Positions 3,841 through 29,345 of a stretch of DNA of 44,977 nt are shown one piece after another. The stretch comes from a virus, in IMG/VR virus record IMGVR_UViG_3300048929_000312, positions 1 through 44,977 of that record; one strand, given 5' to 3'. The first letter of the stretch is position 1. Every line of letters begins with the position of its first letter. The translations under genes were made by a program, and so were the position numbers. The notes beneath the pieces are model-generated. The model worked only from the letters and a program-made list of their open reading frames with translations, ran no database searches and was not told the origin of the DNA.

Positions 3841-3841
3841 G

Positions 3842-3919
3842 TCAGAAGTCCCAAAACAGAGAGATGAAACCGGCAGCGAGCACGGCAGCGGCGAGTGCAT
3901 AGAGGGGCCAAGGGTTCAT
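3842..3919 (-). CDS. 25-aa membrane micropeptide in the lysis operon
   Basis: A tiny gene encoding MNPWPLYALAAAVLAAGFIS plus LFWDF. It is essentially one membrane helix flanked by Trp/Tyr interface residues. Its ATG overlaps the endolysin stop (ATGA) and its TGA ends 1 base before the Rz-like start, so it exactly fills the space between two real genes. This packing and the hydrophobic, non-random composition are the evidence for coding. It may be a pinholin or holin partner. No family is recognised. Confidence 0.6.
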   Translation of the reverse strand: MNPWPLYALAAAVLAAGFISLFWDF

Positions 3920-4749
3920 ATACCGGCCTGCGCATGTTGGCGGCGCCAGTACCAAGCGCACGCAGCGATACCGACGATGGCAATTGCCAGCCAGAACATC
4001 GGATTGGTCGCAACAGCGCCGAGTATGTCGAACACGCCTAAATCCTTGACGCCCTGCTTCATTGAGTTGGCTTGGTCGACGGCGTCTTTGATCTTACTGG
4101 CGGCCTCTGCCGCGCCAGCCACGCCAATGGCAATCTGGCCATTGCCGATCTTGGAGGTCGTCATCGGCTTGACGCTGCCTTCTGCTACGTCCACGCCTTG
4201 CGGCATAGGGTCGAGCGCATCGGGAGCAGCACGCTTCTCGGCGTGATATTGGGTCTGCACTGCGGTGTGGTTGCCTTCAGCGAAAAGCCGCGCTTCGGCC
4301 GCGCGACGGCGCGTCAGGCCTGCGAGAACGCGACCGCCGCCGCGATTCCATTTGGCGAATTCGCCGACCGCGCCTTCGAAGTCCTTCGCGTTGACCTTGC
4401 GCAGCAGACTCGACTTGGCCAGATTGCCTTCGCCGCAGTTATAGGTGAACGAGACCAGCGCATCGAATTCGTGCTGCGTCAGCTCGACTTTGACGCGGCG
4501 TCTGACGGCATCTTCGAACCGGCGCATATCGGCGCGAAACTCCGCGTCGCATTCGCCCTTTGTCCAAATGTCTTTAGGACCGAACTTGCGCCCATTGTCG
4601 TTTGTGTGGCCCCAGCCGATCGTCAGAACTCCAGCCGGGCATACGTAGGGGCGATATTGCGAGCGGGCGGCGTCAATGGGGTGCAAGCAGCCCTCGAACG
4701 ACCGCACGAGCGCGCCGCCTTCCGGACTGAGGCGCAGACCGTCGTTCAT
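3916..4749 (-). CDS. GH24 (T4-lysozyme-type) endolysin with C-terminal membrane tail
   Basis: A 277-aa endolysin that cleaves the MurNAc-GlcNAc bond of peptidoglycan. The GH24 domain spans about residues 5-165. The catalytic Glu lies in RSFEGC (E19), and VLTIGWGHT (41-49) carries the conserved Thr; a helical lobe includes LTQHEFDALVSFTYNCG. After a linker, residues about 200-277 hold two weakly hydrophobic stretches and a strong membrane helix (MFWLAIAIVGIAACAWYW) with a basic end. There is no N-terminal signal or SAR segment. The start at 4749 overlaps the stop of the 32-aa gene (ATGA); the longer reading to 5001 would run through the promoter element and the fibre gene. Confidence 0.88.
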   Translation of the reverse strand: MNDGLRLSPEGGALVRSFEGCLHPIDAARSQYRPYVCPAGVLTIGWGHTNDNGRKFGPKDIWTKGECDAEFRADMRRFEDAVRRRVKVELTQHEFDALVSFTYNCGEGNLAKSSLLRKVNAKDFEGAVGEFAKWNRGGGRVLAGLTRRRAAEARLFAEGNHTAVQTQYHAEKRAAPDALDPMPQGVDVAEGSVKPMTTSKIGNGQIAIGVAGAAEAASKIKDAVDQANSMKQGVKDLGVFDILGAVATNPMFWLAIAIVGIAACAWYWRRQHAQAGI

Positions 4750-4844
4750 TGCAGCAGCCCAAACAGCACGACGAGGCACGTAGCGGTCAGGATCCCCAGC
4801 CGCGGGTGGTCCTCTAGCCAGGATGCTACTACGTATAGGGCCAT
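4746..4844 (-). CDS. 32-aa membrane micropeptide heading the lysis operon (holin candidate)
   Basis: Encodes MALYVVASWLEDHPRLGILT followed by ATCLVVLFGLLQ: a short amphipathic head and one membrane helix. AAAGGTG lies 8 nt before the ATG, and the TGA overlaps the endolysin ATG (ATGA). It is the first gene after the promoter element at 4859-4881. First position, membrane helix and coupling to endolysin are what a minimal holin would show; at 32 aa it is shorter than known pinholins. Coding status is inferred from signals and packing, not homology. Confidence 0.65.
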   Translation of the reverse strand: MALYVVASWLEDHPRLGILTATCLVVLFGLLQ

Positions 4845-4858
4845 AAGACGCACCTTTA

Positions 4859-4881
4859 CACGTTAAATACGAAATGTCAAC
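4859..4881 (-). promoter_or_regulatory. dispersed promoter/operator element, lysis operon copy
   Basis: Reading leftward: TTGACA TT TCGT ATT TAACG TG, a full match to the consensus TTGACAnnTCGTnnnTAACG. TTGACA (4880-4875) lies 31 nt before the 32-aa gene, so transcription would begin almost at its ATG if this hexamer is the -35 box. Confidence 0.75.
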
Positions 4882-4888
4882 ATTAAGG

Positions 4889-5809
4889 CTAGTTTGATTC
4901 CATGATGATCCAGTTGGTGCCGTCCGACTGAAGCCTCGCCCATTTACCCGCTGTGCCAGCAAGAATCGCAGTTCCCGCAGCGCCGCCGATCTGGGGCACA
5001 ACGTTCGAAGAGGCGCTGACGACCGTCTGGGCCGCGATCGTTTTGACGGTGAGCCACTGACCAGGGACGCTGGATGCAGCCAAGAGCGTCAAAGTCAGCG
5101 AAGCTGCGCCATTGAAGATCAGCGAACCGTCAAGCGCGGTTTGCGTGTAATTAGCAGTTTTGGTGGTCGGAATCGCAGTAGCGATCGGGCCACCTACGGT
5201 CAGAAGCGTCGCACCGGCAGGGCCGGCACTCGTATAAGGTGTTCCCGGCGAACCTGCTTGACCGCCAATGGAGACGTTTCCACCGTTCGGATTAAGCACC
5301 TGGCCGAAATTACTCGCCAAATTCGAGATAAGCGAAGGCTGGAGCCAAACTGCGCCGCTGGCGTAAACACCGAAACGCATTTCAACGGTACCATTGCCGA
5401 ACGCAAAGCTTTGAGATGCATCGGTAGTGCCGGAGGTCGCAGGAACGCCTGCGCCTACTGATGTTTGAAGATTGGGTGGTACTGTCCCCGTTGTTGAGAG
5501 GCCGCCAGTAAACGCCTGCGCACCTGAAAAGGTGTTGACGCCGTTCAATAGCGGAACATTTGCGCCGCTCGTGCCGATACTAGTAAAAGCGGAAGTTCCG
5601 AGCGTGCCGCCTGTTCCGACGTTTAAAGTACTTCCGTCCGTTCCAGCGAGCGTCAAAGAGTTATTGAATTTAGCTACTTTGCCGACCGCGACCGCACAAA
5701 CCGCCGTCGCCGCAAGTGCTCGCACCCCCGTCGCTCCGTCGATCAGGAAGATATCGCCAGCTTGAACAGCAGTTGCGGCAGGCTCGGCATTGGGACGGAT
5801 CGAGGCCAT
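4889..5809 (-). CDS. fibre-like virion protein
   Basis: A 306-aa Gly/Ser/Thr/Ala-rich protein with beta-repeat composition typical of phage fibres. It has short NVPLLNGVNTFSGAQAFTGG-type and GTVEMRFGVYASG segments, and it ends in a compact beta region (ANYTQTALDGSLIFNGAASL..WLTVKTIAAQTV..WARLQSDGTNWIIMES) common at the C-terminal ends of phage fibre and spike proteins. It lies downstream of the collar gene in the same direction, with an 18-base gap. It is probably a receptor-side or capping component; the receptor is unknown. Confidence 0.65.
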   Translation of the reverse strand: MASIRPNAEPAATAVQAGDIFLIDGATGVRALAATAVCAVAVGKVAKFNNSLTLAGTDGSTLNVGTGGTLGTSAFTSIGTSGANVPLLNGVNTFSGAQAFTGGLSTTGTVPPNLQTSVGAGVPATSGTTDASQSFAFGNGTVEMRFGVYASGAVWLQPSLISNLASNFGQVLNPNGGNVSIGGQAGSPGTPYTSAGPAGATLLTVGGPIATAIPTTKTANYTQTALDGSLIFNGAASLTLTLLAASSVPGQWLTVKTIAAQTVVSASSNVVPQIGGAAGTAILAGTAGKWARLQSDGTNWIIMESN

Positions 5810-8973: not shown

Positions 8974-11003
8974 TACTCAATCGCCCCCGTCACGGGATTG
9001 AACCGACGAATCTTGTTGATGTTAGCGCCATGATCCGCCGCAAGTGCCGGATTGTTCGCCTGCGTCTGAAATTCAGGCAGCGCGTAGCTCTGCGTCAAAT
9101 CTTGGCCCGTCGTCGGGTCTTGGATGTGATGCGCCTTGTCGTAATCCGTGATGATGTTCTGCACCGTGACAGGGTCGATCTTCTTGCCCTGCGAAATGGC
9201 CGCAGCGGTCGCGTCGCGGATCGCACCGCCAACGGCGATATTACGCTGCTCGATCTGTGCCTGAATGCCGAGCAGGCGTTGATTGCCCGTGATGGACATA
9301 TCCAGGCCGGGATTGGCCTTGAGGAAATTCGACATTTCGAAGTTCGTCACGCGCGAGCCGACGGCGTTCTTCGCTTGTGCGCCGGCCATCGAGCGATTGA
9401 ACTTGGTCAAGAACTCCTTGTCGGAGATGTCATCCTCGCTAAACGGCTTCTCGATGCCGAGCGCAGCGGCACCCGCATTGATGCTCTTTTGCAATTCGAG
9501 CCGCGTAGCCGGAGCCATGCCGCCAGTCGTGCCGTTGTTCTTCTGAATGGCGTCGACTGCTCCTTGCATCGCAGCAATGTCGCGGGCACGCGTCTGAGCA
9601 TCTTCCACGCCATTGGCCAGTGAAGCATGAGCCTTGCCGAGACCTTCGGCGAGCTGCTTGTCGTAGGTCTGCCCCGAATTCATGTCGATATTGTTCGATA
9701 CGTTGGTCGCGCCGGCTCGCGCCTTTTGCGTGGACCAAGTCGCGTAATCCATGACCGGCTGACCGCCAGCGTTCTTCTTGTAATATTCGTATTCGCGAAC
9801 CGAGGTCGGATCTTCCGTGGCCTTGATCGGCACATGAAGCAACCCGTCAGGGCCAACCTGCAACAGGTTGCCATCGGCGTCCTTGTACGGGGCAGCCGCC
9901 TTCGGCTTCATTTCCTGCGCGAGAACGGACGTAGCCAATTGCTTGGTGGTCGCATCCGTATACGGAGACGTGATGGCCTCCATTGCGGCGCGTACCTTGG
10001 CGGTTCCGGGCGTTGGCGCAGCAGCGGCAGCCGCCACGGGCGTAGGCGCGGGAGTGCCACTAGCCGCAGCCGTCACAGCAGCGACGCCGGGGCTCGGTAC
10101 CGCTGCGGTCGGCGCGTAAGCTACTGGTCCCGCAGAGGCGACTTTGACAGGCGCGGGTGTGGCGTCGTCGGGCGAATTGAATACGTGGCCACCGATCGTG
10201 ACGCTTTCGCCACCGGCCCACGCGGGCGGCGCGCGACCCATCGCGGCTTGACCGGCCGGTGAGTAGAAATGCGTCATACCTTCGGTCGGATCTTCCGGCG
10301 CTTTGCCACCCTCACCGTAGGCAGACCGGATCGCGGCATCGGCCTGCGCAGCCAGGGCCGGGTTCGCAGCGGCTGCGGCCATACGATCGCGACCGGCTTG
10401 CGTATTCCACGGCTCGAATTGATTTGGCGCGGTAACGACAGCCGACGGCGTGTTGCCGCCGTATCCACCATCCACGGCGCGCGTGCGGATGACCGAAGCG
10501 ACGGCATTTTTGCCGAGCTGGGGTTCGTTGCCAGCCTCGCCAAGAATCGTCGCAATCATCTTCTTGCGATCCTCGCCGGACGGAGGGTCAAGCGGGGAGG
10601 GCTCATCGTTGGAGTAAATCTTGCCGCTCGTGTCGGGCACCGCAATCGGTGCCGTGGTCGGCGTGGCAACTGCAGCGGCCGGAGCGGCTGCAACTGGCGC
10701 CTCGGCAGCGACCGGCGCACCGCCGAGCAGCGCCGCAATTCGAGTTGCGTTCTCCGACGCATTGGCTTTCGCCGCCTCGTCGGCTTCGCGGTAGTCGAAA
10801 CCGGCCGACACACCTTTGGCTACTCGCGCGAGACCCTGCGTTAGCAGACCCGCGCCGCGCGTCCCGGTCGGAAAGGCACTTTGGTCGCCGGCCTGCAATG
10901 CCAGTGCGTCCGCGACCTTGCGGCGTTCTGCGATTTGGTCGGGCGTCAGCCGCGCGCCGTTAGAGCCCCAAGTGAAAGCCGGTGCTGCTTCGTCGAGAGC
11001 CAT
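8973..11003 (-). CDS. virion protein with SleB-type cell wall hydrolase domain
   Basis: A 676-aa protein. Residues about 148-255 resemble the Hydrolase_2 / SleB cell wall hydrolase domain: MIATILGEAGNEPQLGKNAV with the likely catalytic Glu (E156), then VIRTRA, then APNQFEPWN and a THFYSP segment. Ala/Pro-rich linkers flank it, and the C-terminal half is helical and Gln/Asn-rich. It is probably an ejected protein that opens peptidoglycan at entry, like other podovirus virion lysins. It is coupled by a one-base overlap to the ejection protein, and its start sits at the stop of the 343-aa gene. Confidence 0.75.
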   Translation of the reverse strand: MALDEAAPAFTWGSNGARLTPDQIAERRKVADALALQAGDQSAFPTGTRGAGLLTQGLARVAKGVSAGFDYREADEAAKANASENATRIAALLGGAPVAAEAPVAAAPAAAVATPTTAPIAVPDTSGKIYSNDEPSPLDPPSGEDRKKMIATILGEAGNEPQLGKNAVASVIRTRAVDGGYGGNTPSAVVTAPNQFEPWNTQAGRDRMAAAAANPALAAQADAAIRSAYGEGGKAPEDPTEGMTHFYSPAGQAAMGRAPPAWAGGESVTIGGHVFNSPDDATPAPVKVASAGPVAYAPTAAVPSPGVAAVTAAASGTPAPTPVAAAAAAPTPGTAKVRAAMEAITSPYTDATTKQLATSVLAQEMKPKAAAPYKDADGNLLQVGPDGLLHVPIKATEDPTSVREYEYYKKNAGGQPVMDYATWSTQKARAGATNVSNNIDMNSGQTYDKQLAEGLGKAHASLANGVEDAQTRARDIAAMQGAVDAIQKNNGTTGGMAPATRLELQKSINAGAAALGIEKPFSEDDISDKEFLTKFNRSMAGAQAKNAVGSRVTNFEMSNFLKANPGLDMSITGNQRLLGIQAQIEQRNIAVGGAIRDATAAAISQGKKIDPVTVQNIITDYDKAHHIQDPTTGQDLTQSYALPEFQTQANNPALAADHGANINKIRRFNPVTGAIE

Positions 11004-12034
11004 TAGCGCGCCCTCGCTGCGGCGGTGTAGTTGACACCCCGGAAGCCGAACGCGTCACCCATAACGGCCTCGGGGACTTTTTTCTCTACGTCGTCGGCCA
11101 TCAAACCGATTTCAGGCGGCCCGCCGGATTTGTATTTGTAGAGATAGACCGGGAGCCCGTTGTCCAGTTCGCCAACCTTTTCACGGCCGTCGGTGTCCAG
11201 TTCGCCAACCTTTTCACGGCCGTCGGCATCCACGCCTTCCTTGAGGGACGGATCGGAATACTTGATCGCGGCCGTCGCGCCCGTGCCAGCGAGACTGAAT
11301 AGGCCGCCCATCATCGCGTTATTGGCCGCGACGCTCTGCTGTGCCTGCTGATTGGCATCGAGATAAGAGTTCTGCGTAATACCGGCGACGTCCGTGCCAG
11401 CGACGCTCGTTTGCGGCGTCGACTGGAATGTCGGCGTATTGACCTGAGAACCCGAGAGAAGCGCCCCAAGCGTGTTGACGTCTGAATTGCGATTGGCAAG
11501 TGCTTCGGATTGCGCCTGTGCATCGCCCTGCAAATAGAGCTGATTATACGCGCTGTTCTTCGCCGCGTTGTAGCTCGTCATCGCGTTATTATAGGCTTCC
11601 GAACCGGGCGTAATGCCCTGGTTGGCCAGCATTGCTGCTTGCTTGGAATCGTTAGCGGCCCACTGTGGGTCGAGCTGCGTCTTACCAATCGAATCGATTT
11701 TATTTGCAATCGCCTGATCGGCATTGAATGGCGTACTCATCTCTGCCGCCGTGTTGGCCGACAAAGACTTCGCGGTGTTCGCTATATTTTGCTCGGTATC
11801 CTGACCCGTGTTGAAAATTGCCTGCTGGGGCGCGGATAGCGCTGTCGTCTGCTGATAGTGCGGCGTGCCGTCGGCATTGGTGCCGACTTGAGTCCACGTC
11901 GAAGTACCAGTGGGGTTCGTCTGGTCGACCTGATTGAGTTCGGCCTGCGTAATGGCCGTCTCTTTATTCGACGCAGTTTGCGCAGCGGCAGTGGTCGTCG
12001 GATCAGGCGCGGCGACGGTGGGGGCGGATTCCAT
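11003..12034 (-). CDS. virion protein with C-terminal S74-type intramolecular chaperone
   Basis: A 343-aa protein. Residues 1-250 are Gln/Asn/Ala-rich and helical. Residues 259-343 match the intramolecular chaperone autoprocessing domain (peptidase S74): YSDPSLKEGV with the presumed Ser-Lys pair, then GLPVYLYKYKSGGPPEIGLM, then ADDVEKKVPEAV and a GFRGVNYT end. Such domains trimerise fibres and then cleave themselves off. A perfect 33-bp tandem duplication lies inside this domain. It overlaps the 676-aa gene at 11003. Its place among internal proteins rather than spikes is unusual for this domain. Confidence 0.75.
   Translation of the reverse strand: MESAPTVAAPDPTTTAAAQTASNKETAITQAELNQVDQTNPTGTSTWTQVGTNADGTPHYQQTTALSAPQQAIFNTGQDTEQNIANTAKSLSANTAAEMSTPFNADQAIANKIDSIGKTQLDPQWAANDSKQAAMLANQGITPGSEAYNNAMTSYNAAKNSAYNQLYLQGDAQAQSEALANRNSDVNTLGALLSGSQVNTPTFQSTPQTSVAGTDVAGITQNSYLDANQQAQQSVAANNAMMGGLFSLAGTGATAAIKYSDPSLKEGVDADGREKVGELDTDGREKVGELDNGLPVYLYKYKSGGPPEIGLMADDVEKKVPEAVMGDAFGFRGVNYTAAARAR
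11161..11226. repeat. perfect 33-bp tandem duplication inside the S74-type domain
   Basis: 11161-11193 and 11194-11226 are identical over 33 bases. They add 11 residues in frame (unit read as VGELDTDGREK in the leftward protein) just before the conserved GLPVYLYKYK strand. Exact identity points to recent slippage or duplication. Confidence 0.95.
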
Positions 12035-12037
12035 GCA

Positions 12038-12472
12038 TCAGACACCTGTTTGAAGCGGGTCTGAGCCACCTCGTTTCGTCTTAAACGGCCAATCTCGCGC
12101 GAGTACGCCGAGCATCGTGGCATCCCGACCGGGACCGAATGCGTCGCGCTTGATGCCTTCGATTTTTGCTCCCGCACGCTGCATCAAATCAACAACGTGG
12201 GGCTGTTCTGTCGTCACAGAAAATCGCGAGCAACCAAGTTCTTCAAATAGGTATACGCCCACGCGAACTAAAAATGTCTTAGTAAAGGCTTTGGGGTGAG
12301 CCACAGCGGCTGTAACGTGAACGTCCGTCCCCGTGTAATGGTTAAAAACGACGCCGGCCGTTACCTGACCATCTTGAACAACGCCGAGTTGGGTGTGGTC
12401 TTGGCCAAGGGCGATCCCCGTCTTTCGCGCCACAAAGGCGGCAATTCGGGCGTCTGAGACGAATTCGCGCAT
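12038..12472 (-). CDS. GNAT-type acetyltransferase-like protein
   Basis: A 144-aa protein resembling the small GNATs encoded near virion genes in podoviruses. It has [20 protein letters not shown] strands, an [21 protein letters not shown] helix-strand region, and the end [19 protein letters not shown]. The consensus acetyl-CoA loop is weak. I placed the start at MREFVSD (12472), because the longer reading to 12538 would run back through the rightward promoter element at 12495. Four bases separate it from the 343-aa gene. Its substrate, perhaps a virion or host protein, is unknown. Confidence 0.6.
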
Positions 12473-12494
12473 GTTGCGAATGTGCCGAACTAAA

Positions 12495-12517
12495 GTTGAC
12501 AAATCGTTTTTAAATGG
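12495..12517 (+). promoter_or_regulatory. dispersed promoter/operator element, reductase copy
   Basis: TTGACA AA TCGT TTT TAAAT GG: the first 15 positions and the following TAA match the consensus, while the end diverges (AAT for ACG). It points right, 133 nt before the aldo/keto reductase ATG, and sits in the gap between the divergent GNAT and reductase genes. Confidence 0.6.
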
Positions 12518-12633
12518 TAAATCACAGGTCAAGAGCAAAATCTTTTCATCTGCTCCCCTTTTGTTAGATAGCCGCTTCCATGAGGCGGGAGGTCGGTGTA
12601 TCGTCTGCGAATTACAACCAAAGAGACAGATGC

Positions 12634-13542
12634 ATGAAATATCGCGATTTTCACGGCACTAAGGTGTCGGAGATCGGATTCGGATCATCCGGATTTTGGG
12701 GAGACCGACGCTTTCCTGAAACGAGCGCCGAGCGCCTCGTTCATGAGGCCTATTTCGATCACGGCATCAACCATTTCGACACCGGTCACAATTACTGCAA
12801 TTATAATTCAGAGCCTCGACTCGGTCGCGCGCTTCAGCCCTTATGCCGCTCCGATATCCTCATTTCCAGCAAAGCGGGAACGCTTCGGCGCAAATTCGGA
12901 GGTGCTAACCACTCCACAACTGATTTTTCTCCCGATTATATAGAAACGGCCTGCGCACAATCGCTCGCCAATCTAAAAACCGACTATCTCGACATTTTCT
13001 ATCTGCACGGCATTCCGGTCGAAAAAATAACTGACGAACTGGTCAAGCGCCTACACCGCATGAAGCGCTGCGGCATGGTGCGTTTCGTCGGCATCAACAC
13101 TCACAAAGATGAGGTAATGAAGCACATCGTCGGAATGCCGGACGTATTCGACGTGGCGCTGATCGACTTCAACATGGCCCAGCCGGAGCGCATGGACGCT
13201 ATCCGCATGCTGCGCCGCGCCGGCATCAGTGTCATGGTAGGGAATGTCCTTGCCCAAGGCCACCTAATCCCCGGCAAGATTGGCCGCATCCGCAGTCGCG
13301 CCGATCTGTTCTACTTGCTGCGCGCCCTGATCAAGAAGGACAGCCGCCGCCTCGCTGCCATCGCCAAGGCTGCCCGCTCCGCTGGCGGTAATGGCCTGTC
13401 TCCGGCCCAAGCCGCTATGGCGTATGCTCTTAACGTCCCTGAAATAACGTCGTGCATCTTCGGCACCACGAATGCCATGAATCTCGCCGATATCGCCGAG
13501 ACATCCGAGCGCCTAGCAGCGAATCACGTCCCCACATCGTAA
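12634..13542 (+). CDS. aldo/keto reductase (cargo gene)
   Basis: A 302-aa NAD(P)H-dependent oxidoreductase of the aldo/keto reductase superfamily. The catalytic tetrad is intact: D49 and Y54 in HFDTGHNY, K80 in ISSKAG, and H125 in FYLHG. Later segments ([38 protein letters not shown]) follow the barrel in the usual order. The start [10 protein letters not shown] at 12634 is chosen because family homology begins there. It lies on the strand opposite to the virion genes under its own copy of the phage promoter element. Its 3' end overlaps a remnant of the virion gene end. The substrate cannot be told; a sugar or surface-glycan precursor is only a guess. Confidence 0.85.
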
Positions 13543-13592
13543 GTTAGGTCAGTCGACACAAGTTCTACGTCTGGCGCGCTTAAGTTGCCGCT
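13524..13592 (-). pseudogene. orphan 3' end of the virion stabilisation gene
   Basis: Read leftward, these 69 bases encode [18 protein letters not shown] followed by DVGT and a stop. This is the same ending as the intact gene at 14027-15700, which has one extra DVG. Every shared residue is identical, while about half of the codons differ synonymously (for example TTA/CTC, CTA/TTG, stop TGA/TAG). Upstream of it the frame is closed. It is a diverged relic, overlapped at its stop end by the reductase gene. Confidence 0.9.
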
Positions 13593-13691
13593 CGCGTAGG
13601 GCAAACGTGCGCCGCGCTGCTACGCCACGCAACGATTGGTTTTATCAATTTACCCTCGCTACTATTCGCTTCTCAACACGTCGCAACGATC

Positions 13692-14030
13692 ATGAATGAC
13701 GAAACAGACCTAACCCAGTGGTTTAAAGAGGATGTCAATCGGTGGCACTCTCTCTCACCTCTTTTGAAGAAGGCATGGGCAAAACACAGCCCTTTTCCAC
13801 CGGAGCCAATAATCAAGAACCCTCGGGGTGGCTATTCAAAAGAGCGAAAAATAAAGAAAGCACAACATTACGCAAAGATTCTCTCGGCCCTGCGAAGAGG
13901 CTGGAAAACAGAGACAATCGCGAAATATTTTGGCGTCAGCACGCCCACTATTTACAGAATCGCTAGAGTATACGGAGTAAAAACAAACGGACTTACACCC
14001 GGCGCAAAGATGGGACGCCCTCGACACTAA
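13692..14030 (+). CDS. HTH protein (resolvase/homeodomain-like), cargo gene
   Basis: A 112-aa basic protein. A C-terminal helix-turn-helix covers residues about 64-96 (ILSALRRGWKTETIAKYFGV, then STPTIYRIARVYGV) and resembles the DNA-binding end of Hin-type recombinases, but there is no catalytic domain. The coding sequence is visibly richer in A/T-ending and AGA/AAA codons than its neighbours, suggesting separate transfer. Its TAA (14028-14030) interlocks with the TAG of the convergent virion gene (14029-14027). No copy of the dispersed promoter precedes it; the 92 bases upstream hold only AT-rich sequence. Confidence 0.65.
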   Translation: MNDETDLTQWFKEDVNRWHSLSPLLKKAWAKHSPFPPEPIIKNPRGGYSKERKIKKAQHYAKILSALRRGWKTETIAKYFGVSTPTIYRIARVYGVKTNGLTPGAKMGRPRH

Positions 14031-15700
14031 GTCCCCACGTCGCCCACGTCATAGGTCAAATCAGTCGACACAAGTTCCACGTCCGGCGCGCTGAGGTTGC
14101 CCGATGTGATCTGCGTCGCCGGACTCAGGCTATAGCCGGCGCCCGGCGTTGATTCCCATGCCTGGACAGTGATCGATGCGGCGGCCGTACCCCACTGCGC
14201 CTGCCCCCAAATGCCGGTTCCCCACGTATTCGCTGCTGCGATCGTCGTATCATCGGGAGCCGCAGGCAAATTGACCGTGTAATCTGCCTGTAGCGACATC
14301 TTGGGTGTTGGCTGCGACGTCGCGCGCAGGACGGCGCGAGCCTCCAAACCGGTCTTAAGCGCCGCCGGGCTCTTTAGTGGATCAAACAACGGGACGCATG
14401 TGCAGGTATAGGCGCTTCCCTGATCCGATCCCGTGACTTCGGCCTCGACGATCTTTCCGGAATCGGAGCCGAAAAACAGGCGGTCATTGAAAACTGCCAT
14501 GCAGAACACGTTCCAGCCGGTAAACGAAGCCCATGCGCCTGTGCGCGCGTTCGCAGCGAACAATTTCGGCACCGCACCGTCGGGATTGGGCGGCGCGACG
14601 AGCATCATCTGCTTGGTCGGCCACAGTGCTACTTGCCACGACGGATCCGGAGATGCCGCAACGGCAGCGTTCCATTCAATTTCGATCGAATAGGAGACAG
14701 CCACGGGCGACAGTGCCGCGACGTCACGCTGAAATGCCGTTGAAAGCGGAATGAGTCCAATCGTCGTCGAAATGATCATATCGCCGCCGGCACGGATAAA
14801 CGCTTTCGGCCCTAGCGGCTTACCGATCCGAAAAACGCCTTGCCGAGACCAATTCGTCGCGTCGCTCGGATCGCTTCCAGTATAGGTCGCAACTTCGCCC
14901 TCTGTCGTGACGAACACGGTCTGTTCGGATGGCCCGTCACCCGATTCAATTGACCAGGTGCCTCCGAACAGCAGCGCGCCTCCGAGCGTGAAAATACCGC
15001 CCAAGGGGAGCAGCGTTGCCGCGCCGCCGATCGCGTTTGGTGCCAGATAGTAAATATTGAGCGTGTCTTTCTGGACGAACCACAGTCGAAACTTGGAAGC
15101 GAACACGTAGGAAAGCGTGGTCGGATCAACCCCGGTGATCGCGGGCGATGTGCTCCAGTTCGTGCCATCGAACACCAGCGGCGTATCGACGCCGTTGACG
15201 CATCGCAGGAACGTACCGCCTGGTGTGGAAAATTGAACAACGGACCAATCGCCACTCGCCAGAAGGTCGACGTCAGGGGCCAAAATGGAGCTTTGCCCGA
15301 GGATCAGATTGCCGTTTTGATCAACGATGTTGTTGCCGCTTTGGTCAACCAAGTCGACATCAAACGGCACCTCGGGACTTGTGATGTCGTAAATCTCGGA
15401 CGGCGTCGCCGCGAACAGGTTTGCTGCGTTGCCGTTGAGATAGGAAAACATCGAGACGACGTTGTCGACTTCATTTCCGATCGTCGCGAACAAGTCGGAA
15501 CCGCCGCGCATGCGGATCCCGGTCGCGGTCGGAAACCAGTTTTCCAGCATCGCCGCGCCCATGACCACGCTGCCGTCGGGCTTGCGAGCATTCGGCGTGA
15601 GTAGGTTTTGGTTGGCAATCCAGCCCGAAACCGGCGCCGGGAACGTTTTGAGCTGCGCGGCGCGTGGCTTGGGATTGGTGCGGGCGGCGGGGACTCTCAT
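14027..15700 (-). CDS. head-completion / packaged-DNA stabilisation protein (P22 gp10-like)
   Basis: A 557-aa beta-rich protein of the podovirus portal-plug / stabilisation class. It has repeated strand blocks (WFPTATGIRMRGGSDLFATI, VFASKFRLWFVQKDTLNIYY, GRTGAWASFTGWNVFCMAVF) that resemble a beta-propeller. It lies immediately after the gp4-like adaptor gene (4-base ATGA overlap), the same order as in P22. The C-terminal 25 residues are duplicated in diverged form at 13524-13592. Assignment rests on size, composition and gene order, not on a decisive motif. Confidence 0.7.
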   Translation of the reverse strand: MRVPAARTNPKPRAAQLKTFPAPVSGWIANQNLLTPNARKPDGSVVMGAAMLENWFPTATGIRMRGGSDLFATIGNEVDNVVSMFSYLNGNAANLFAATPSEIYDITSPEVPFDVDLVDQSGNNIVDQNGNLILGQSSILAPDVDLLASGDWSVVQFSTPGGTFLRCVNGVDTPLVFDGTNWSTSPAITGVDPTTLSYVFASKFRLWFVQKDTLNIYYLAPNAIGGAATLLPLGGIFTLGGALLFGGTWSIESGDGPSEQTVFVTTEGEVATYTGSDPSDATNWSRQGVFRIGKPLGPKAFIRAGGDMIISTTIGLIPLSTAFQRDVAALSPVAVSYSIEIEWNAAVAASPDPSWQVALWPTKQMMLVAPPNPDGAVPKLFAANARTGAWASFTGWNVFCMAVFNDRLFFGSDSGKIVEAEVTGSDQGSAYTCTCVPLFDPLKSPAALKTGLEARAVLRATSQPTPKMSLQADYTVNLPAAPDDTTIAAANTWGTGIWGQAQWGTAAASITVQAWESTPGAGYSLSPATQITSGNLSAPDVELVSTDLTYDVGDVGT

Positions 15701-16416
15701 GGGCCAAGCATCGCCGGATATGCCACGCTATTGCTGCGCGAGACGCGCTGACGCCCCACCACTATCACTTGGCTCCCCTTGTCCTTACCCATCGCCGCTT
15801 GCTTGGCGATTTCGTAGTTCTTCAAATCCTCGGCGTATTCGAGCCGCTTTGACGCGCGCCACCGCCAAATGATGCCGAGCCGCAGCAACCGCTCATCGAG
15901 CGCGAACGTGTCCGTATCGGCGAGGAAGGCCGCCTGTGGCGTGCCGCCGCCAGACAGCGCGTAATAATTCGAAATATAGTAAAAGCGCGCCGTATCGTTG
16001 ACGGGCATCGGCGGGAAAATCTGCACTGATCGATTGAGAATCACCCAATTGCCGGGCGACCCGACGAGCAGGTTATCCTTGAGGAACAGCCACTCGTCCA
16101 AGTCCTTCGCGGCGCGGAAAGTGGCGTTCTTGAAGCGCAACGAATGCAGCTTTGCGCCTTTGATGAGCCGTTCGTAGTCCGGCGCAAGCGACGGCGCGAA
16201 GGGAAACACAACGGTCGTACCGTCACCCTGGCATGTTGCCAGAATGGTCAGATCGCGCCAGTCGTGCTCTTCCTTGATGAGCGACTCGGCCGTGTCTTTC
16301 GCGGCCAGAAGCAATTCAGCCGCGAAAGCAGCGTCAGATGTCGGGGAAAACACTGACGTCGGCCGTGGCCGATTGAGACTAACCGCCGCGTCTTGGCATG
16401 CTGTAAGAATAGTCAT
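15697..16416 (-). CDS. short-tail adaptor / head completion protein (P22 gp4-like)
   Basis: A 239-aa protein of the phage head-tail adaptor class. Its N-terminus pairs an ACQDAAVSL helix with a ELLLAAKDTAESLIKEEHDW helix. Then come beta strands LTILATCQGDGTTVVFPFAP, LRFKNATF, WLFLKDNLLVGSPGNWVILN, and a FPPMPVNDTARFYYISNYYA segment. The C-terminal helix includes LGIIWRWRASKRLEYAEDLKNYE, which is typical of this family. It bridges the portal and the tail machine. It is coupled by ATGA to the stabilisation gene. Confidence 0.8.
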   Translation of the reverse strand: MTILTACQDAAVSLNRPRPTSVFSPTSDAAFAAELLLAAKDTAESLIKEEHDWRDLTILATCQGDGTTVVFPFAPSLAPDYERLIKGAKLHSLRFKNATFRAAKDLDEWLFLKDNLLVGSPGNWVILNRSVQIFPPMPVNDTARFYYISNYYALSGGGTPQAAFLADTDTFALDERLLRLGIIWRWRASKRLEYAEDLKNYEIAKQAAMGKDKGSQVIVVGRQRVSRSNSVAYPAMLGP

Positions 16417-17330: not shown

Positions 17331-17352
17331 ACGTTATAAACGAATTGTCAAC
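17331..17352 (-). promoter_or_regulatory. dispersed promoter/operator element, head-operon copy
   Basis: Reading leftward: TTGACA AT TCGT TTA TAACG TG, a full consensus match with a perfect CGTT-TAT-AACG dyad. TTGACA (17351-17346) is 61 nt before the 256-aa gene. It directly abuts the upstream terminator, so one unit ends and the next begins here. Confidence 0.8.
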
Positions 17353-17382
17353 AAAAAGCCACGGGAGCGAACCCCCGTGGCT
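17353..17382 (-). terminator. Rho-independent terminator after the 194-aa virion gene
   Basis: Leftward strand: AGCCACGGG (17382-17374) pairs perfectly with CCCGTGGCT (17365-17357) around an 8-nt loop, followed by TTTTT (17357-17353). It lies 27 bases past the stop of the 17409-17993 gene. Confidence 0.9.
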
Positions 17383-17408
17383 GATTTGGAACGTCCGAGA
17401 AGATGCTA

Positions 17409-17993
17409 TTAGGTGATCGCACCCTGAGCGAACGGGCGGTTGATTTCGACCACCGCGAGACCAGCCGACGGCGTACCGGTGGCAGTCACGTTGACGGCGT
17501 TGACGACTTCTTCGCCAGCGGCAGCGGTTGAAGTGACCTGGCCCGAACCGGCCAGATAGACCTTGCCGGGACCGGCCGCCAGCGTGCCGTTGGTCGCAAC
17601 TACGGCATTACCGGAAATCTGATACCAGCCGTACTGGCCGGCAACGTTCGCCGACATGGCGACCGCAAGAGGTGCACCCTGATTAGCGGTCGCGGCGGCG
17701 AGCGCCGTTTGCCAAGTCGGCTTGCCGGAAGTGTTGCCGTTATAGGTCACAACGGAGCCCACGACGGTCGAAGCGACGCCGAGCAGGTAGATGAACTCGC
17801 CTTCGCCATAGGTCGGGTCGTATGCCTTGGCAATGCAGCCGAGGCGGCCGGGGGTCGAGTTGCCAGCGGGGCCACGAGTGCTGCCAAGAGTACCGGCCGC
17901 AACAGTGCTGGTATTGACGGTCGTGGTGGGCGCCGGAAGAGTCGCGGCGATCGGCGTCTGGCCAAGAGTCGGTTCGCGGAAAACGTAAGTCAT
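17409..17993 (-). CDS. capsid decoration / head-fibre-like protein
   Basis: A 194-aa Ala/Gly/Thr/Val-rich beta protein. Residues about 45-120 include PGRLGCIAKAYDPTYGEGEF, a IYLLGVASTVVGSVVTYNG strand pair and APLAVAMSANVAGQYGWYQI, a pattern common in small proteins encoded just after a coat gene. No enzyme motifs. It probably decorates the capsid. It is the last gene of the scaffold-coat unit, being followed by a strong terminator. Confidence 0.65.
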   Translation of the reverse strand: MTYVFREPTLGQTPIAATLPAPTTTVNTSTVAAGTLGSTRGPAGNSTPGRLGCIAKAYDPTYGEGEFIYLLGVASTVVGSVVTYNGNTSGKPTWQTALAAATANQGAPLAVAMSANVAGQYGWYQISGNAVVATNGTLAAGPGKVYLAGSGQVTSTAAAGEEVVNAVNVTATGTPSAGLAVVEINRPFAQGAIT

Positions 17994-18120: not shown

Positions 18121-19125
18121 TTACGCCGAGGTGAATTTCCAGGTAAAAAGCGGATTGTTCAAGGTCAGCTCGCCCATGAATCCGATGTACTGGACCACTG
18201 CGTCCTGGTTGATCGGCATCATCGAGCGGCCGATCTTGTCGAAGTTCCGTTCCGGATGGTAACGCATCTTGAGCGCGTCGGTATCCAGGCCGTAGGTGGT
18301 GCCGGTCGGCATGTTCGATCCGATGCCGCCGTCCTGCACGATTTCCGCCGAGCGACCAGCACCGAAGTACTTGAGGCTCTGGAAACCGAGCTTGCCGAGG
18401 CTGGTCTCGTTCTCGATCTTCTGGATCGCAACGGTCGCAGCGTCGTATGCGGCGTAGTGATCGGCCGACATGAGCAGCAAGTCGGCGCCCTTTTTGTTAC
18501 GAGACCGCTTCGTCATGATCTCGTTCAGGAACGGGCGAATGGTCGTGCTGGTGACGGTCGTGCCGATGTTGGTGTCCATGTTCGTCGCGGAGAAGTACGA
18601 CGTACGCCAGATCGGGTTCGCGGCGCGATCGATGCCGGCATAGACGCCGGTCGTGTTCAGGGTCGGAACCGCGAGCTGGAGGCCCGAGAATTCCTTGCCG
18701 CCAAAGTTCGTGCCGTTGGACTGGAGCGACGCGTCGCAGATGTCCTGCAACTCGTTCTCGGCTGCGGTGATGTGCGCTTCCATCACATCTTCGAGCTGGT
18801 TCGGCCCGGAGTTGTTCAGGATTTCTTCGTTGGTCAGCGTCACGGCGACGGCGACCATCTTCGGCAGATACTCGGCGTCGTTGAACAGTTCCGTCGGGAT
18901 GGACTGCAACAGGTCGAAACCGTTGTAGAAAACGCCCGAGCCGGTCTTGTTGTAAAGCAAACGCTCGCGAATTCGCGGACCCGAATAGGTCTGCCAATTC
19001 TTCTTCTTCTGAATGATGTGCAGCAGCGCGTTGCTGTTGCTCACCAAGTCCTGGTAGCCGGCGGAACGATCTTCGAGCGCCAGCGAAAGAATTTCCTGGT
19101 TCTTTTCGACTGCGGTAAGAGACAC
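18121..19125 (-). CDS. major capsid (coat) protein
   Basis: A 334-aa protein with the features of an HK97-fold coat protein of short-tailed phages. It has an N-terminal helical arm (EKNQEILSLALEDRSAGYQD), then IRERLLYNKTGSGVFYNGFD, a long spine-helix segment NQLEDVMEAHITAAENELQD, and a late beta region (SLKYFGAGRSAEIVQDGGIG, then MRYHPERNFDKIGRSMMPIN). It sits directly after a scaffold-like gene in the usual head-gene order. It is moderately sized and has no decoration insertion that I can see. Confidence 0.85.
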   Translation of the reverse strand: MSLTAVEKNQEILSLALEDRSAGYQDLVSNSNALLHIIQKKKNWQTYSGPRIRERLLYNKTGSGVFYNGFDLLQSIPTELFNDAEYLPKMVAVAVTLTNEEILNNSGPNQLEDVMEAHITAAENELQDICDASLQSNGTNFGGKEFSGLQLAVPTLNTTGVYAGIDRAANPIWRTSYFSATNMDTNIGTTVTSTTIRPFLNEIMTKRSRNKKGADLLLMSADHYAAYDAATVAIQKIENETSLGKLGFQSLKYFGAGRSAEIVQDGGIGSNMPTGTTYGLDTDALKMRYHPERNFDKIGRSMMPINQDAVVQYIGFMGELTLNNPLFTWKFTSA

Positions 19126-20480: not shown

Positions 20481-20538
20481 AAGCCTGCCTGTCTGAGAGG
20501 ACACCCCTGAGGGGATTGGGCAATATGACACTATTGGT

Positions 20539-20561
20539 GTTGACAAATCGTATATAACGTG
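20539..20561 (+). promoter_or_regulatory. dispersed promoter/operator element, cargo-operon copy
   Basis: TTGACA AA TCGT ATA TAACG TG, a full consensus match, pointing right. It is 115 nt before the 75-aa gene and divergent from the scaffold gene. A GCCGGG-GAAAG-CCCGGC hairpin (20613-20629) lies in the leader between. Confidence 0.8.
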
Positions 20562-20659
20562 GAAGCTTCCAGAACTGCTCCAGTAGCGCAGGGGAATGAC
20601 CATGGAAACAGGCCGGGGAAAGCCCGGCTGACTGGCATATAGGGAAAAGGTAGCGAGAT

Positions 20660-20887
20660 ATGGCAGATGCAACGTGCCAGTTCTGTAAGTGGTGGGCACC
20701 CGGTGATTACCAGGGCAATGCTACTGTCGAAAGTCGCGAGAATATCGGCAGACACATGAATGTTGATTGTCGGCGACATGCGCCCATAGTTCGCGAAATA
20801 CGGAGTGGAAACTACATTCAGTTCCAGAATTGGCCGCAGACAAATGGAGCGAGTTGGTGCGGGGATTTCGAACAGGTGCCCGAATGA
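20660..20887 (+). CDS. Cys-rich small protein, probable zinc binder
   Basis: A 75-aa protein with CQFCKWW near the start, a central VDCRRHAP and a late GASWCGDFE, giving four Cys plus His able to bind one metal ion. AGGTAG lies 7 nt before the ATG. It is the first gene of a three-gene rightward operon embedded in leftward virion genes; its stop overlaps the next start (ATGA). The pattern resembles small phage zinc proteins of unknown role. Confidence 0.65.
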   Translation: MADATCQFCKWWAPGDYQGNATVESRENIGRHMNVDCRRHAPIVREIRSGNYIQFQNWPQTNGASWCGDFEQVPE

Positions 20888-21129
20888 CCAGCCCGTTCCG
20901 CGTAGACGCCCACAAAAACCTGCCGTCCTATTGGGAAGCGCACTGCGCCGCGTTCCTCGGTGAGACGGCACCCGCTGCGCGCACGGCGCGAGATCAATTC
21001 GCGATCGATCGAGGAACGGAGGATGGTCTCGCAGCAAGGAAACAGCGCGGCAAAATCATCCGGTTGAAGAATGGCGCGACATGGCGTCTAATCAACTCGG
21101 GCGCCGAGCCTTTCCGGAGCGTGGGATGA
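20884..21129 (+). CDS. hypothetical protein, 81 aa
   Basis: Not recognised. Starts MTSPFRVDAHKNLPSYWEAH and ends with a basic beta-like part GKIIRLKNGATWRLINSGAE. It is coupled on both sides by ATGA overlaps (20884 and 21126), so it belongs to the same transcript as its neighbours. It has no membrane segment or Cys cluster. Translation coupling is the main support. Confidence 0.6.
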   Translation: MTSPFRVDAHKNLPSYWEAHCAAFLGETAPAARTARDQFAIDRGTEDGLAARKQRGKIIRLKNGATWRLINSGAEPFRSVG

Positions 21130-21410
21130 GCGAACTAGTCGAGGGCGTGGCAGAAGCCATTGCATTGAGCGGAAACGGCGGAACTTGGGATAACTGGTAC
21201 ACGCCCGAGCAGAAAGAGTTTCATAGACGCCGCGCTCGCGCCGCCATCGCAGCAATGCGTATACCCACGGAAGAAATGATCTATATCGGCGAATACATGC
21301 TTGATGGAGCCAACCCGACCGAGGCATGGCAACGCATGATCGACGAGGCCCTTAGCGCCCCATCACCGAGCCCATCGCGGGCTGACGCGGCTTCGGCACC
21401 ACGGCCATAG
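21126..21410 (+). CDS. hypothetical protein, 94 aa, with a tail antisense to a virion gene
   Basis: Residues 1-75 look like a folded helical protein (ELVEGVAEAIALSGNGGTWD, FHRRRARAAIAAMRIPTEEM, EAWQRMIDEALS) similar to small phage proteins that pair an N-terminal helix with a RARAAIAAM segment. The last 18 residues (SAPSPSPSRADAASAPRP) are low complexity and lie antisense to the probable original end of the leftward Pro-rich gene. This suggests that the cargo operon ran into that gene and borrowed a stop codon. Confidence 0.6.
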   Translation: MSELVEGVAEAIALSGNGGTWDNWYTPEQKEFHRRRARAAIAAMRIPTEEMIYIGEYMLDGANPTEAWQRMIDEALSAPSPSPSRADAASAPRP

Positions 21411-21437
21411 CGCCAAGCGGCGTCACGGGCGGCGGGG

Positions 21438-21707
21438 TCATCGTCGGCGACGCAGGCACCCAATCGTCCTCTTTGGACCTCGCCGGGACAGGGCGGCAAA
21501 CGCTGCGGCCGGATGAATGTCCATCGGTGGTGCTGCTCCGGGATCGGCCGCCGGCACCACGTATGTCATCGTCGGAGTCACTTCAGGCGCGGGCATAATG
21601 CCAACCGGCGCGGCTGCGGCCGGCGGGCTCTGCGGCGAAAGGGACGCCACGATGTCGCGGATCTGCTGATCGCTATAGCCGCCCGAGGTATCGCCGTAAT
21701 CGGCCAT
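21438..21707 (-). CDS. Pro/Ala-rich small virion-side protein, probably frameshifted
   Basis: An 89-aa protein: MADYGDTSGGYSDQQIRDIV, then Pro/Ala-rich PQSPPAAAAPVGIMPAPEVT and onward. AAAGGA precedes the ATG. The final residues (RRGPKRTIGCLRRRR) are unlike the rest. In the -1 frame, reading stays open to a TAA at 21354-21352 and gives ARSKEDDWVPASPTMTPPPV and PLGAMAVVPKPRQPAMGSVM, matching the earlier Pro-rich style. The original protein was thus probably about 118 aa, with a frame change near 21484. No consensus slippery heptamer is evident. Confidence 0.6.
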   Translation of the reverse strand: MADYGDTSGGYSDQQIRDIVASLSPQSPPAAAAPVGIMPAPEVTPTMTYVVPAADPGAAPPMDIHPAAAFAALSRRGPKRTIGCLRRRR

Positions 21708-21726
21708 TACTTTGTTCCTTTGGGGC

Positions 21727-21852
21727 TCACTTGCACCCTTCCCATTCCGCCGCGCGCTTCAGCCACACCAATGCCGCAGCCAATTCCTCATCGCGGAGAT
21801 GCTTCCGGACGGCCTTGACGATCGCTTTCTGCGTGGCGTCGGGCTTCGGCAT
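21727..21852 (-). CDS. 41-aa helical protein
   Basis: Encodes MPKPDATQKAIVKAVRKHLR then DEELAAALVWLKRAAEWEGC and K: two amphipathic helices. Its ATG shares a base with the stop of the peptidase-like gene (TGATG), and the next gene follows after a 19-base gap that holds its ribosome-binding site. Composition and exact packing support it as real, though no family is known. Confidence 0.65.
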   Translation of the reverse strand: MPKPDATQKAIVKAVRKHLRDEELAAALVWLKRAAEWEGCK

Positions 21853-22325
21853 CACGTTGCCACCAATGCGCCCGCTGCGCTGCATGCGAGAGCACATCCC
21901 ACGGGGGTAATCTTGTTGGCCGCTAGATAGAGCGGGGGAGTGATCCCTGCTACCTCACACGCAGCGGCCTGAAGTTCCGAACAAATCCAACTGTCGGGCG
22001 CGCGCCAGTCGCGATTAAACATAAACGCAAAAATTGCGGTCGTGTCATAGGGCTTGCCGACTTGAGACTGCAAGAAACCATAGAAAGCGGCATCTTGCGC
22101 GGGAGTCGCAGGAAGGTTCATCACGACACGGCGCGAAAACTTCGCGTAATTGGGTGGCCGGATCTGGACACCCGGCGGCTTGCCACCGACCGAATCGGAG
22201 CGCGCGCCTAAAAGGTTGCTATCGGGTAGAATCGCGTCGACGTGACTGAAATGGCCCTGACTAAACCACGCAATCAATTGCGAGGAAATGGCATCTTGGC
22301 AAACGAACTGGAGCGCGGCCATCAT
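21852..22325 (-). CDS. permuted NlpC/P60 (YiiX-like) cysteine peptidase-like protein
   Basis: A 157-aa protein with the permuted papain-fold order: an early His in GHFSHVDAILPD (H28), a middle VMNLPATPAQDAAFYGFLQS, then GKPYD, and a late Cys in DSWICSELQAAACE (C115). Such enzymes act on acyl, amide or peptidoglycan-peptide bonds. Here it is expressed with small virion genes, so it may be a virion-associated wall or lipid hydrolase (inference). It overlaps the upstream gene by ATGA. Confidence 0.7.
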   Translation of the reverse strand: MMAALQFVCQDAISSQLIAWFSQGHFSHVDAILPDSNLLGARSDSVGGKPPGVQIRPPNYAKFSRRVVMNLPATPAQDAAFYGFLQSQVGKPYDTTAIFAFMFNRDWRAPDSWICSELQAAACEVAGITPPLYLAANKITPVGCALACSAAGALVAT

Positions 22326-22932: not shown

Positions 22933-23409
22933 TCAGGCGGGGTTGAGGATACGGGGGCCACCGTTGGGGCCGGGCGGCGGCGTGGGCTCCATAGGGAGCA
23001 CACTGGCGACTGATCCCACCTCCGCAGCCGTTACGGTAACTGTCTCCGCACCGGGCAGCGGGCCGGGAGGTGCGCCATTCGAGGGTTCGAGCATCCCCTG
23101 AATCGTCGACATCAAATCCTGGCCGTACTTTTCCAGCTCGGGCGCGTGTGTCTCCAAAACTCCCACACCGGTCTCGATCACGTCCAAGGCCGCATCGAGC
23201 CGCGGCCCGGCCACGGCTGCCCGCTTTTCGAGCCCCTTCGCGCGCTGAAGTCGCGACTTAAGGCCGGCGAACTCCATGGGAGCGGGCAGGGTGGGAGTCG
23301 TCGGGCCCGTGGCCATTTCCAGATACTCCGGATGCTTTTGCAGGATCTCAAGCCGGAGCTTCAGATGCGCTATCGCAACGAAGGCGGTGAGGCGGTCCAT
23401 TTTCCCCAC
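22933..23409 (-). CDS. hypothetical protein, 158 aa
   Basis: Not recognised. The N-terminal half is helical and basic (RLTAFVAIAHLKLRLEILQK, LKSRLQRAKGLEKRAA), the middle is an amphipathic helix (VIETGVGVLETHAPELEKYG), and the end is Pro/Gly-rich (PMEPTPPPGPNGGPRI). It starts 16 bases before the degenerate rightward promoter element at 23425, with which it is divergent. The first (MGKM) or second Met may be used. Confidence 0.6.
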   Translation of the reverse strand: MGKMDRLTAFVAIAHLKLRLEILQKHPEYLEMATGPTTPTLPAPMEFAGLKSRLQRAKGLEKRAAVAGPRLDAALDVIETGVGVLETHAPELEKYGQDLMSTIQGMLEPSNGAPPGPLPGAETVTVTAAEVGSVASVLPMEPTPPPGPNGGPRILNPA

Positions 23410-23424
23410 GATAGGACCGGAAAG

Positions 23425-23446
23425 GTAACATTTCGTTTATATGGTG
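23425..23446 (+). promoter_or_regulatory. dispersed promoter/operator element, degenerate methyltransferase copy
   Basis: GTAACA TT TCGT TTA TATGG TG. The TCGT core and AT-rich centre are kept; the -35-like hexamer has two changes and the final half-site is altered. It points right, 92 nt before the 28-aa/methyltransferase pair. Confidence 0.45.
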
Positions 23447-23537
23447 TCGGGTTCGGCGTGGCGTTTGCCAAAGTCAAGTCTCTCTGAAAGACATTTTTCG
23501 CTTGGAGGTTGCGGTGGGGAGAGGTAGCGTGCGCGGT

Positions 23538-23624
23538 ATGACCGATTGGATCGTATTCGCCGTCTGCTTCACGATGTCGGCTATTGGAGCCATAACCGTC
23601 TACTCGCTTGCAAAGAAAACCTGA
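23538..23624 (+). CDS. 28-aa membrane micropeptide ahead of the methyltransferase
   Basis: Encodes MTDWIVFAVCFTMSAIGAIT then VYSLAKKT: one membrane helix with a basic cytoplasmic end. GAGAGG lies upstream, and its TGA shares a base with the methyltransferase ATG (TGATG), so the two are translated together. It could tether or regulate the enzyme, or act as an exclusion peptide. Confidence 0.6.
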   Translation: MTDWIVFAVCFTMSAIGAITVYSLAKKT

Positions 23625-24361
23625 TGCCCACACCGACCTATGATCCAGCGTTCTTCGAAATGGTTCGCCGCGACTCCAGACAATCCGCACAGCTCGTTGT
23701 CCCCAAGATCCTCGAACTATTTCAACCAACGTCGTTACTAGACGTTGGCTGCGGTACCGGCGAGTGGTTGGATGAGTTCAGCAAGCAAGGTGTCACGAAT
23801 TACCTCGGCATTGACGGGGACTACGTCGATTCCGGTCAACTTTCCATTCCAAAAGACAGGTACAAGCCCGTCGATCTGCGCCAACCATTCGACGTCGGTC
23901 GATTTGATATGGTGTGCTCGTTTGAGGTCGGCGAGCACCTGTCGGACGCTTGCTCCGATGGCTTTGTAGCCAGCTTGACGGCCGCCGCGCCCGTGGTGAT
24001 CTTCTCTGCCGCCATTCCCTACCAAGGGGGCGTCGATCACATCAACGAACGCTGGCAGTCTTATTGGGGACGAAAGTTTCAGGATCGCGGCTACATCGCC
24101 TTTGACCCGCTGCGGCCGGCGATTAAGCACAATAAAGAGATTGGTGTGTGGTATCGGCAAAACACCTTGGTCTACTGCATCCCATCCTCCGCACCGAAAA
24201 CGCTTCAACCGTGCGCAATAGAGGACCTAGATTTCGTGCATCCCGAACTCCACGAAATGATCATGGAGAACGTCCGAAACGCAATTCCCAATGGTACTAA
24301 ATCCGTTCAAGGGTTATTGAACGTCGCCAAGAGACGCATCGGCATCCGCCGGGCGAATTAA
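23624..24361 (+). CDS. class I SAM-dependent methyltransferase (cargo gene)
   Basis: A 245-aa enzyme. Motif I is SLLDVGCGTGEWLD (37-50), the acidic end of strand 2 is LGIDGDYVD (61-69), and motif IV-like FDMVCSFEVGEHL follows. The later part (FSAAIPYQGGVDHINERWQS, YWGRKFQDRGY, then WYRQNTLVYC) resembles methyltransferases found in surface-glycan clusters, so sugar or lipopolysaccharide methylation is a reasonable guess. It is not a DNA methyltransferase by motif: no DPPY or NPPY. It is convergent with the spike gene and their TAA stops interlock in TTAA (24358-24361). Lysogenic conversion of the receptor would fit this context. Confidence 0.8.
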   Translation: MPTPTYDPAFFEMVRRDSRQSAQLVVPKILELFQPTSLLDVGCGTGEWLDEFSKQGVTNYLGIDGDYVDSGQLSIPKDRYKPVDLRQPFDVGRFDMVCSFEVGEHLSDACSDGFVASLTAAAPVVIFSAAIPYQGGVDHINERWQSYWGRKFQDRGYIAFDPLRPAIKHNKEIGVWYRQNTLVYCIPSSAPKTLQPCAIEDLDFVHPELHEMIMENVRNAIPNGTKSVQGLLNVAKRRIGIRRAN

Positions 24362-28103: not shown

Positions 28104-28106
28104 AAG

Positions 28107-29342: not shown

Positions 29343-29345
29343 GAT

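Follow-up and report, generated by a model that had tools for sequence, protein, structure and literature searches.

In the virus genome analysed here, two cargo genes lie between two podovirus virion genes, on either side of a second copy of a virion-gene end. This interval is probably a scar left when two sister phages that carried different morons at the same place, the boundary between the stop of the gene gp10 and the start of a GNAT-like gene (GNAT), underwent illegitimate recombination. The whole stretch of DNA, referred to as the window, is a virus record of 44,977 bp in IMG/VR, and its minus-strand module of about 1.4-34 kb consists of podovirus virion genes. The features of the interval and its surroundings are the following.

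11003-12034, minus strand: next virion gene, a homologue of S74-peptidase-domain structural proteins of Rhizobium phages (PHROG 6121; synteny)
12038-12472, minus strand: GNAT-like virion/assembly gene (PHROG 4470; synteny in 119 loci)
12494-12517, plus strand: promoter-like motif facing the reductase gene, 63 or 117 nt upstream of its possible starts
12634-13542, plus strand: aldo/keto reductase (AKR), 302 aa from the ATG at 12634, with an alternative ATG at 12580 (Pfam Aldo_ket_red, PF00248, E 4e-34)
13524-13592, minus strand: orphan gp10 3' end, 69 bp, 22 codons and TGA (minus-strand reading, self-BLAST)
13692-14030, plus strand: HTH protein, 112 aa (Pfam HTH_23, E 4e-6)
14027-15700, minus strand: intact virion gene gp10, P22 gp10-like/tubular tail B, 557 aa (PHROG 5107, E 6e-138)
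15697-16416, minus strand: tail tubular A-like gene
18121-19125, minus strand: major head protein
29789-32332, minus strand: portal
32480-33883, minus strand: terminase

The assignment of 14027-15700 to the P22 gp10-like/tubular tail B proteins is based on the family match together with podovirus synteny. Its homologue in phiGT1 is annotated as tubular tail B/phage stabilization protein, and the phiGT1 annotation compares the counterpart of GNAT to P22 gp14. PHROG 5107 carries the label "amidase", which is probably wrong, since the family members in this analysis are tail/stabilization proteins of the gp10 type. The closest relative found (L003/G001) has about 73% DNA identity to the window and a gp10 that is 75% identical. 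Named relatives infect Rhizobium, Sulfitobacter, and Bradyrhizobium, among other hosts, and it is only by analogy with them that a host of the window phage may be proposed. Inside the virion module, a crotonase (enoyl-CoA hydratase)-like protein of 157 aa (PHROG 1128) is encoded at 21852-22325 on the minus strand. A stretch of 163 bp in the early region of the window (36907-37069) is 80% identical to a stretch in the virion module of G001 (L153:9467-9629), at a different genome position, and is perhaps a small gene that moved.

A sequence-only reading of the window had reported that the last 22 codons and the stop of gp10 recur at 13524-13592. Minus-strand reading and self-BLAST of the whole window confirm this repeat, which aligns with the gp10 end over 66 columns at 83.3% DNA identity (E = 2e-11) and is the sole duplicated gene end in the window. 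A chance match is ruled out, since the alignment scores 67.1 bits and the best among 200 Markov shuffles of the insert reaches 31.0. The orphan encodes the same protein end as the intact gp10, apart from three absent codons. As that reading had also held, the shared residues are identical and the codon differences silent: among the 21 collinear codons, 10 are changed, with 14 substitutions in total, all of them synonymous. The first collinear codon (AGC vs TCG) may be the edge of the homology; without it, nine codons differ and 11/11 changes are synonymous. If the orphan had drifted free, the probability of the full pattern would be about 1e-8, assuming that 25-30% of random changes are synonymous. 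The orphan thus diverged inside a working gene, which means that both copies of the gp10 end evolved within working genes.

The two copies also differ by one 9-bp unit. This difference stands, but it is not a gain by the intact copy. Nearly all relatives have ten residues from a conserved [LVM]TY to the stop (LTYETADIVS, VTYDMGDIVT, etc.), and the intact tail of the window has the same length; thus, it is the orphan that shed one unit of a GACGTGGG-type direct repeat. The orphan ends in ACGTGA, which is typical of the family, and the intact copy in ACTTAG. The GTGA-type end of the orphan is what would be expected if the orphan was once joined to GNAT.

The closeness of the donor can be estimated from the gp10 homologues collected in the analysis, in which tail identity was compared with overall identity for all pairs. 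Tails that are 100% identical occur in 21 of the 76 pairs which are at least 80% identical overall (5/39 at 80-90% and 16/37 above 90%) and in none of more than 3,200 pairs at 40-80%. Since identical tails are confined to pairs of at least 80% identity, the donor of the orphan was a close relative, that is, a sister phage. Together with the synonymous-only divergence, this comparison upholds the earlier view that the orphan is the gene end of a diverged relative and not a recent local duplication. A search of IMG/VR with a degenerate pattern of the gp10 tail gave no match.

The normal state of the boundary is known from scans of IMG/VR and of genomes with a gp10 alignment, which yielded more than 110 further loci. 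GNAT starts directly at the gp10 stop, abutting or overlapping it, in 116 of the 119 loci having both genes. A 4-bp overlap of the gp10 stop with the start codon is present in 96/121 loci, GTGA being the most frequent form (41 loci). In the window, about 1.56 kb of extra DNA, made up of the HTH gene, the orphan, and the AKR gene, shifts GNAT away from the gp10 stop, and the GNAT start codon is new. The usual 4-bp overlap fixes the insertion boundary exactly, as only there could cargo enter without damage. The sequence-only reading had expected alternative forms of this interval in related phages. Nearly all have the empty boundary, and L048 and L049, apparently one phage from two metagenomes, carry other cargo there, an HNH_3 + AP2 endonuclease gene; no relative was found with the reductase or the HTH gene alone.

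The same reading had called the gp10 stop a hotspot with exchange at a site just past the stop, and neither part of this proposal holds. Inserts longer than 300 bp occur at gp10/GNAT in 3/119 loci and are no commoner there than at neighbouring boundaries: 5/113 at GNAT/S74, 8/93 at S74/next gene, 4/128 at tail A/gp10, and 3/43 further upstream. A second gp10 end was absent from more than 100 other loci and duplicated gene ends from 18 other inserts, so that orphan ends are rejected as a general sign of insertion, and searches of the contig for integrase and resolvase domains gave no match. Among the phages compared, only the window phage has a second gene end. Many inserts in the module are HNH endonucleases. 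In all five cases measured (L004, L048, L054, L092, and L096), convergent inserts end between 5 bp short of the stop of the upstream gene and 50 bp inside that gene. In this module, inserts regularly enter beside a stop codon, as is to be expected if survival needs both neighbours readable. L003 (L153 about 3261-5559) and L023 each have an insert of about 2 kb that contains a large ORF (665-692 codons) and separates two virion genes, at a boundary which corresponds to 17352-17611 of the window.

Each cargo gene lies tail-to-tail with its own virion-gene end, as had been claimed: the stop codons of the HTH gene and of gp10 overlap, and the AKR gene enters the orphan by 19 bp, so that its last codons and stop are antisense gp10. 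The AKR is assigned by its fold family and by the catalytic D, Y, K, and H, and its active-site motifs FDTGHNY, SSKAG, and FYLHG align to perakine reductase. The nearest homologues in phage contigs, L010 (61% identical) and L011 (52%), are about 14 residues longer at the C-terminus in the alignment than the window AKR, which is cut short there. Their AKR genes are convergent on, and abut, the stop of a virion gene (tail-collar type, as judged by eye). A possible 5-bp sequence shared by both AKR borders, ATTCG, is too short to count. Terminator-like sites in the region number 6, vs 2.8 expected by chance, and no convincing one follows the AKR or the HTH gene. Neither cargo gene was found at the thresholds used in 297 genomes of one order (Hyphomicrobiales, as judged from the seed genome, Ensifer), a negative of little weight, since no positive control gave a match either.

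A promoter-like motif of 24 bp, TGTTGACAATTCGTTTATAACGTG, of the TTGACA type, occurs in the window at 9 sites with at most 6 mismatches, vs 0.01 expected (self-comparison). The sites face ORF starts on both strands.

Plus strand, 24 bp each: 12494, 20538, 23423, 35917, 38314, and 41221
Minus strand, 24 bp each: 4859, 17330, and 32446, and perhaps 35182

The relative G001 has seven sites at up to 7 mismatches, and in other, more distant loci the motif is absent at up to 5 mismatches. The motif is a putative promoter, and its conserved spacer suggests a phage-specific regulator or operator. The site at 12494-12517 belongs to the cargo, because the virion genes here run the opposite way; no lineage motif accompanies the HTH gene. 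The site at 23423 faces a methyltransferase gene (Methyltransf_23; 23546-24361, plus strand), whose stop overlaps by 4 bp the stop of a 978-aa minus-strand gene (24358-27294). The methyltransferase gene is thus a second cargo gene with the tail-to-tail arrangement seen for AKR and HTH. That 978-aa gene is one of several large minus-strand genes (978, 269, 411, and 148 aa) that adjoin the portal at 23400-29800, a block without counterpart in the 73%-identical G001, where the matching gap is only about 1.2 kb. At about 20538-21818, another plus-facing copy of the motif lies within the minus-strand virion module and is followed by small candidate ORFs on the plus strand (75, 109, and 101 aa) without Pfam matches.

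The AlphaFold model of the HTH protein, made from a single sequence, is only moderate overall (pLDDT 70), with helices at 50-68, 73-80, and 84-94 and a pLDDT of about 81-91 over the HTH part. The fold search gave weak matches, mostly to HTH domains (best E 0.07). No homologues were found in phages and IMG/VR; an apparent one in L110 (E 1e-4) was dropped as an out-of-context match inside another gene. A serine recombinase or transposase was considered and rejected, as only weak HTH matches to the N-termini of DNA invertase and IS630 were obtained and no catalytic domain is present.

Five features can be read from the DNA: the orphan, the restriction of its divergence to synonymous changes, the emptiness of the site in relatives, the shortened AKR, and the promoter-like motif. 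From them we infer two parents, an order of events, and no dedicated enzyme. One parent (B) would have had the order gp10-AKR-GNAT, with AKR inserted tail-to-tail directly past the gp10 TGA; in this step, AKR would have lost its own last residues and taken its stop from the antisense gp10 tail, and the original start of GNAT would have been removed. The other parent (A) would have had gp10-HTH, tail-to-tail at a TAG. The join would have connected sequence upstream of HTH, near 13593, with a point 22 codons before the end of the gp10 of parent B, giving gp10A-HTH-[69-bp tail of gp10B]-AKR-GNAT. Such a recombinant could survive, as its gp10A is whole, its AKR still has a stop, and its GNAT is provided with a start codon.

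A join of two phages explains the intact protein of the orphan, its synonymous divergence, its GNAT-type stop, the AKR stop inside it, and its uniqueness. It is also supported by the fact that cargo convergent on a virion-gene stop, with its own end a few to 50 bp away, is usual (L004, L048, L054, L092, L096, the AKR of L010/L011, and the methyltransferase at 24361). Against it count the missing parental types, as neither gp10-AKR alone nor gp10-HTH alone was found in any phage; the junction near 13593, which has no recognisable signature; the HTH gene, which has no detectable homologue; and the contig of the closest relative, L003, which stops inside gp10, before its end.

The other explanations differ in how the second end arose. 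A local duplication of the gp10 end within the window phage, followed by decay, is simple and makes a second phage unnecessary, but a non-coding copy would gather non-synonymous changes, of which there are 0 among 14; it is rejected on this ground and has almost no probability left. It is very unlikely that the contig is an assembly chimera of two co-occurring sister phages. In favour of a chimera are the origin of the window, a virus record in IMG/VR, and the fact that just such a pair of sister genomes would be joined in one; however, the longest identical run between the two gp10 ends is 17 bp, shorter than the words with which assemblers usually work. In addition, the new junction near 13593 is not within the repeat, and AKR depends on the orphan for a stop codon.

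The remaining two explanations invoke a mobile element. Many islands integrate at the 3' ends of tRNA and other genes, and an element with its own copy of the gene end could have integrated site-specifically into the gp10 3' end, restoring the gene and leaving the old end downstream. The anatomy fits, with a gene end, an element, and a second end in direct orientation that share a 17-bp identical core. The would-be element, however, would be only about 0.5 kb and has no recombinase. Tyrosine integrase (PF00589) and serine resolvase (PF00239) domains are absent across the contig, in searches whose controls gave matches, and there is neither recurrent use of the site with repeated ends in other loci nor an excess of inserts at gp10/GNAT; integration is thus highly improbable. 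The HTH gene could instead be a free-standing homing element, or be derived from one. A cut near the gp10 3' end of a gp10-AKR phage would have been repaired from a gp10-HTH donor; gp10 sequence on one side would have been co-converted, and the join on the other side would have been imprecise, so that the old end remained as the orphan. Homing endonucleases (HNH_3, in some cases with HTH repeats) are common cargo at the module boundaries, their genes being present at gp10/GNAT in L048/L049 and nearby in L092, L096, L048, L054, L106, and L004 (the last three judged by eye), and a homing transfer with co-conversion of gp10 would leave identical sequence. Genes of this kind are concentrated close to essential phage genes and mark the borders of exchange (PMC10448857). 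On the other hand, Pfam, NCBIfam, PHROGs, and the fold search recognise no nuclease domain in the HTH protein, only the HTH; HNH_3 has no match across the whole contig; and the HNH inserts of relatives left no second gene end. Homing is accordingly unlikely.

Phage mosaicism is usually read from finished, cleaned-up junctions, whereas the 69-bp remnant records an intermediate step: it tells which gene of the other parent was at the join, how close that parent was, and that the two cargo genes were each attached to the same gene end beforehand. It offers a worked example of how cargo is stacked in a virion assembly cluster with the essential gene unbroken. A broader docking mode in these podoviruses is a tentative idea that has only a small chance of being right. 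In it, cargo, some of it with a copy of the lineage promoter, lands with its stop in or next to a virion-gene stop, and the gene end plus cargo travels as a unit. If this is true, one exchange after another would stack cargo genes, with orphan ends left behind as markers.

Among known systems, the interval is an instance of moron accretion with mosaic recombination. Like the morons of lambdoid and P22-like phages (the "ant moron"; PMC2629481), the cargo lies between late genes and is present or absent among relatives; it is an operon insertion, with 1.56 kb extra between genes adjacent in 116/119 loci. Its absence from all relatives found suggests, on comparative grounds, that it is dispensable for virion assembly. 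Those morons are independently expressed (PMC2629481), and AKR has a promoter-like motif of its own. P22-like morons show flux and degraded remnants, and in the P22 group they were seen only beside the tailspike gene and at no other position in the assembly cluster (PMC2629481). The window cargo differs in being inside the assembly cluster, between gp10-like and gp14-like genes, and in having its two genes separated by a second virion-gene end. The AKR of the prophage-type IMG/VR contigs L010 and L011 is similar in being convergent on, and abutting, a virion-gene stop; these contigs have a different virion gene, a complete AKR C-terminus, and no lineage promoter motif. Free-standing homing endonuclease genes (PMC10448857) use the same module boundaries in relatives, in one case gp10/GNAT itself, whereas neither cargo gene of the window has a nuclease domain. 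Integrative elements that restore a gene 3' end likewise leave a direct gene-end repeat flanking the insert; the window differs from them in that its repeats lie only about 0.5 kb apart, no recombinase was found in its contig, and the arrangement does not recur. A duplicated gene end does not by itself imply a site-specific element, and the scar is an ordinary product of illegitimate recombination that is unusually well preserved.
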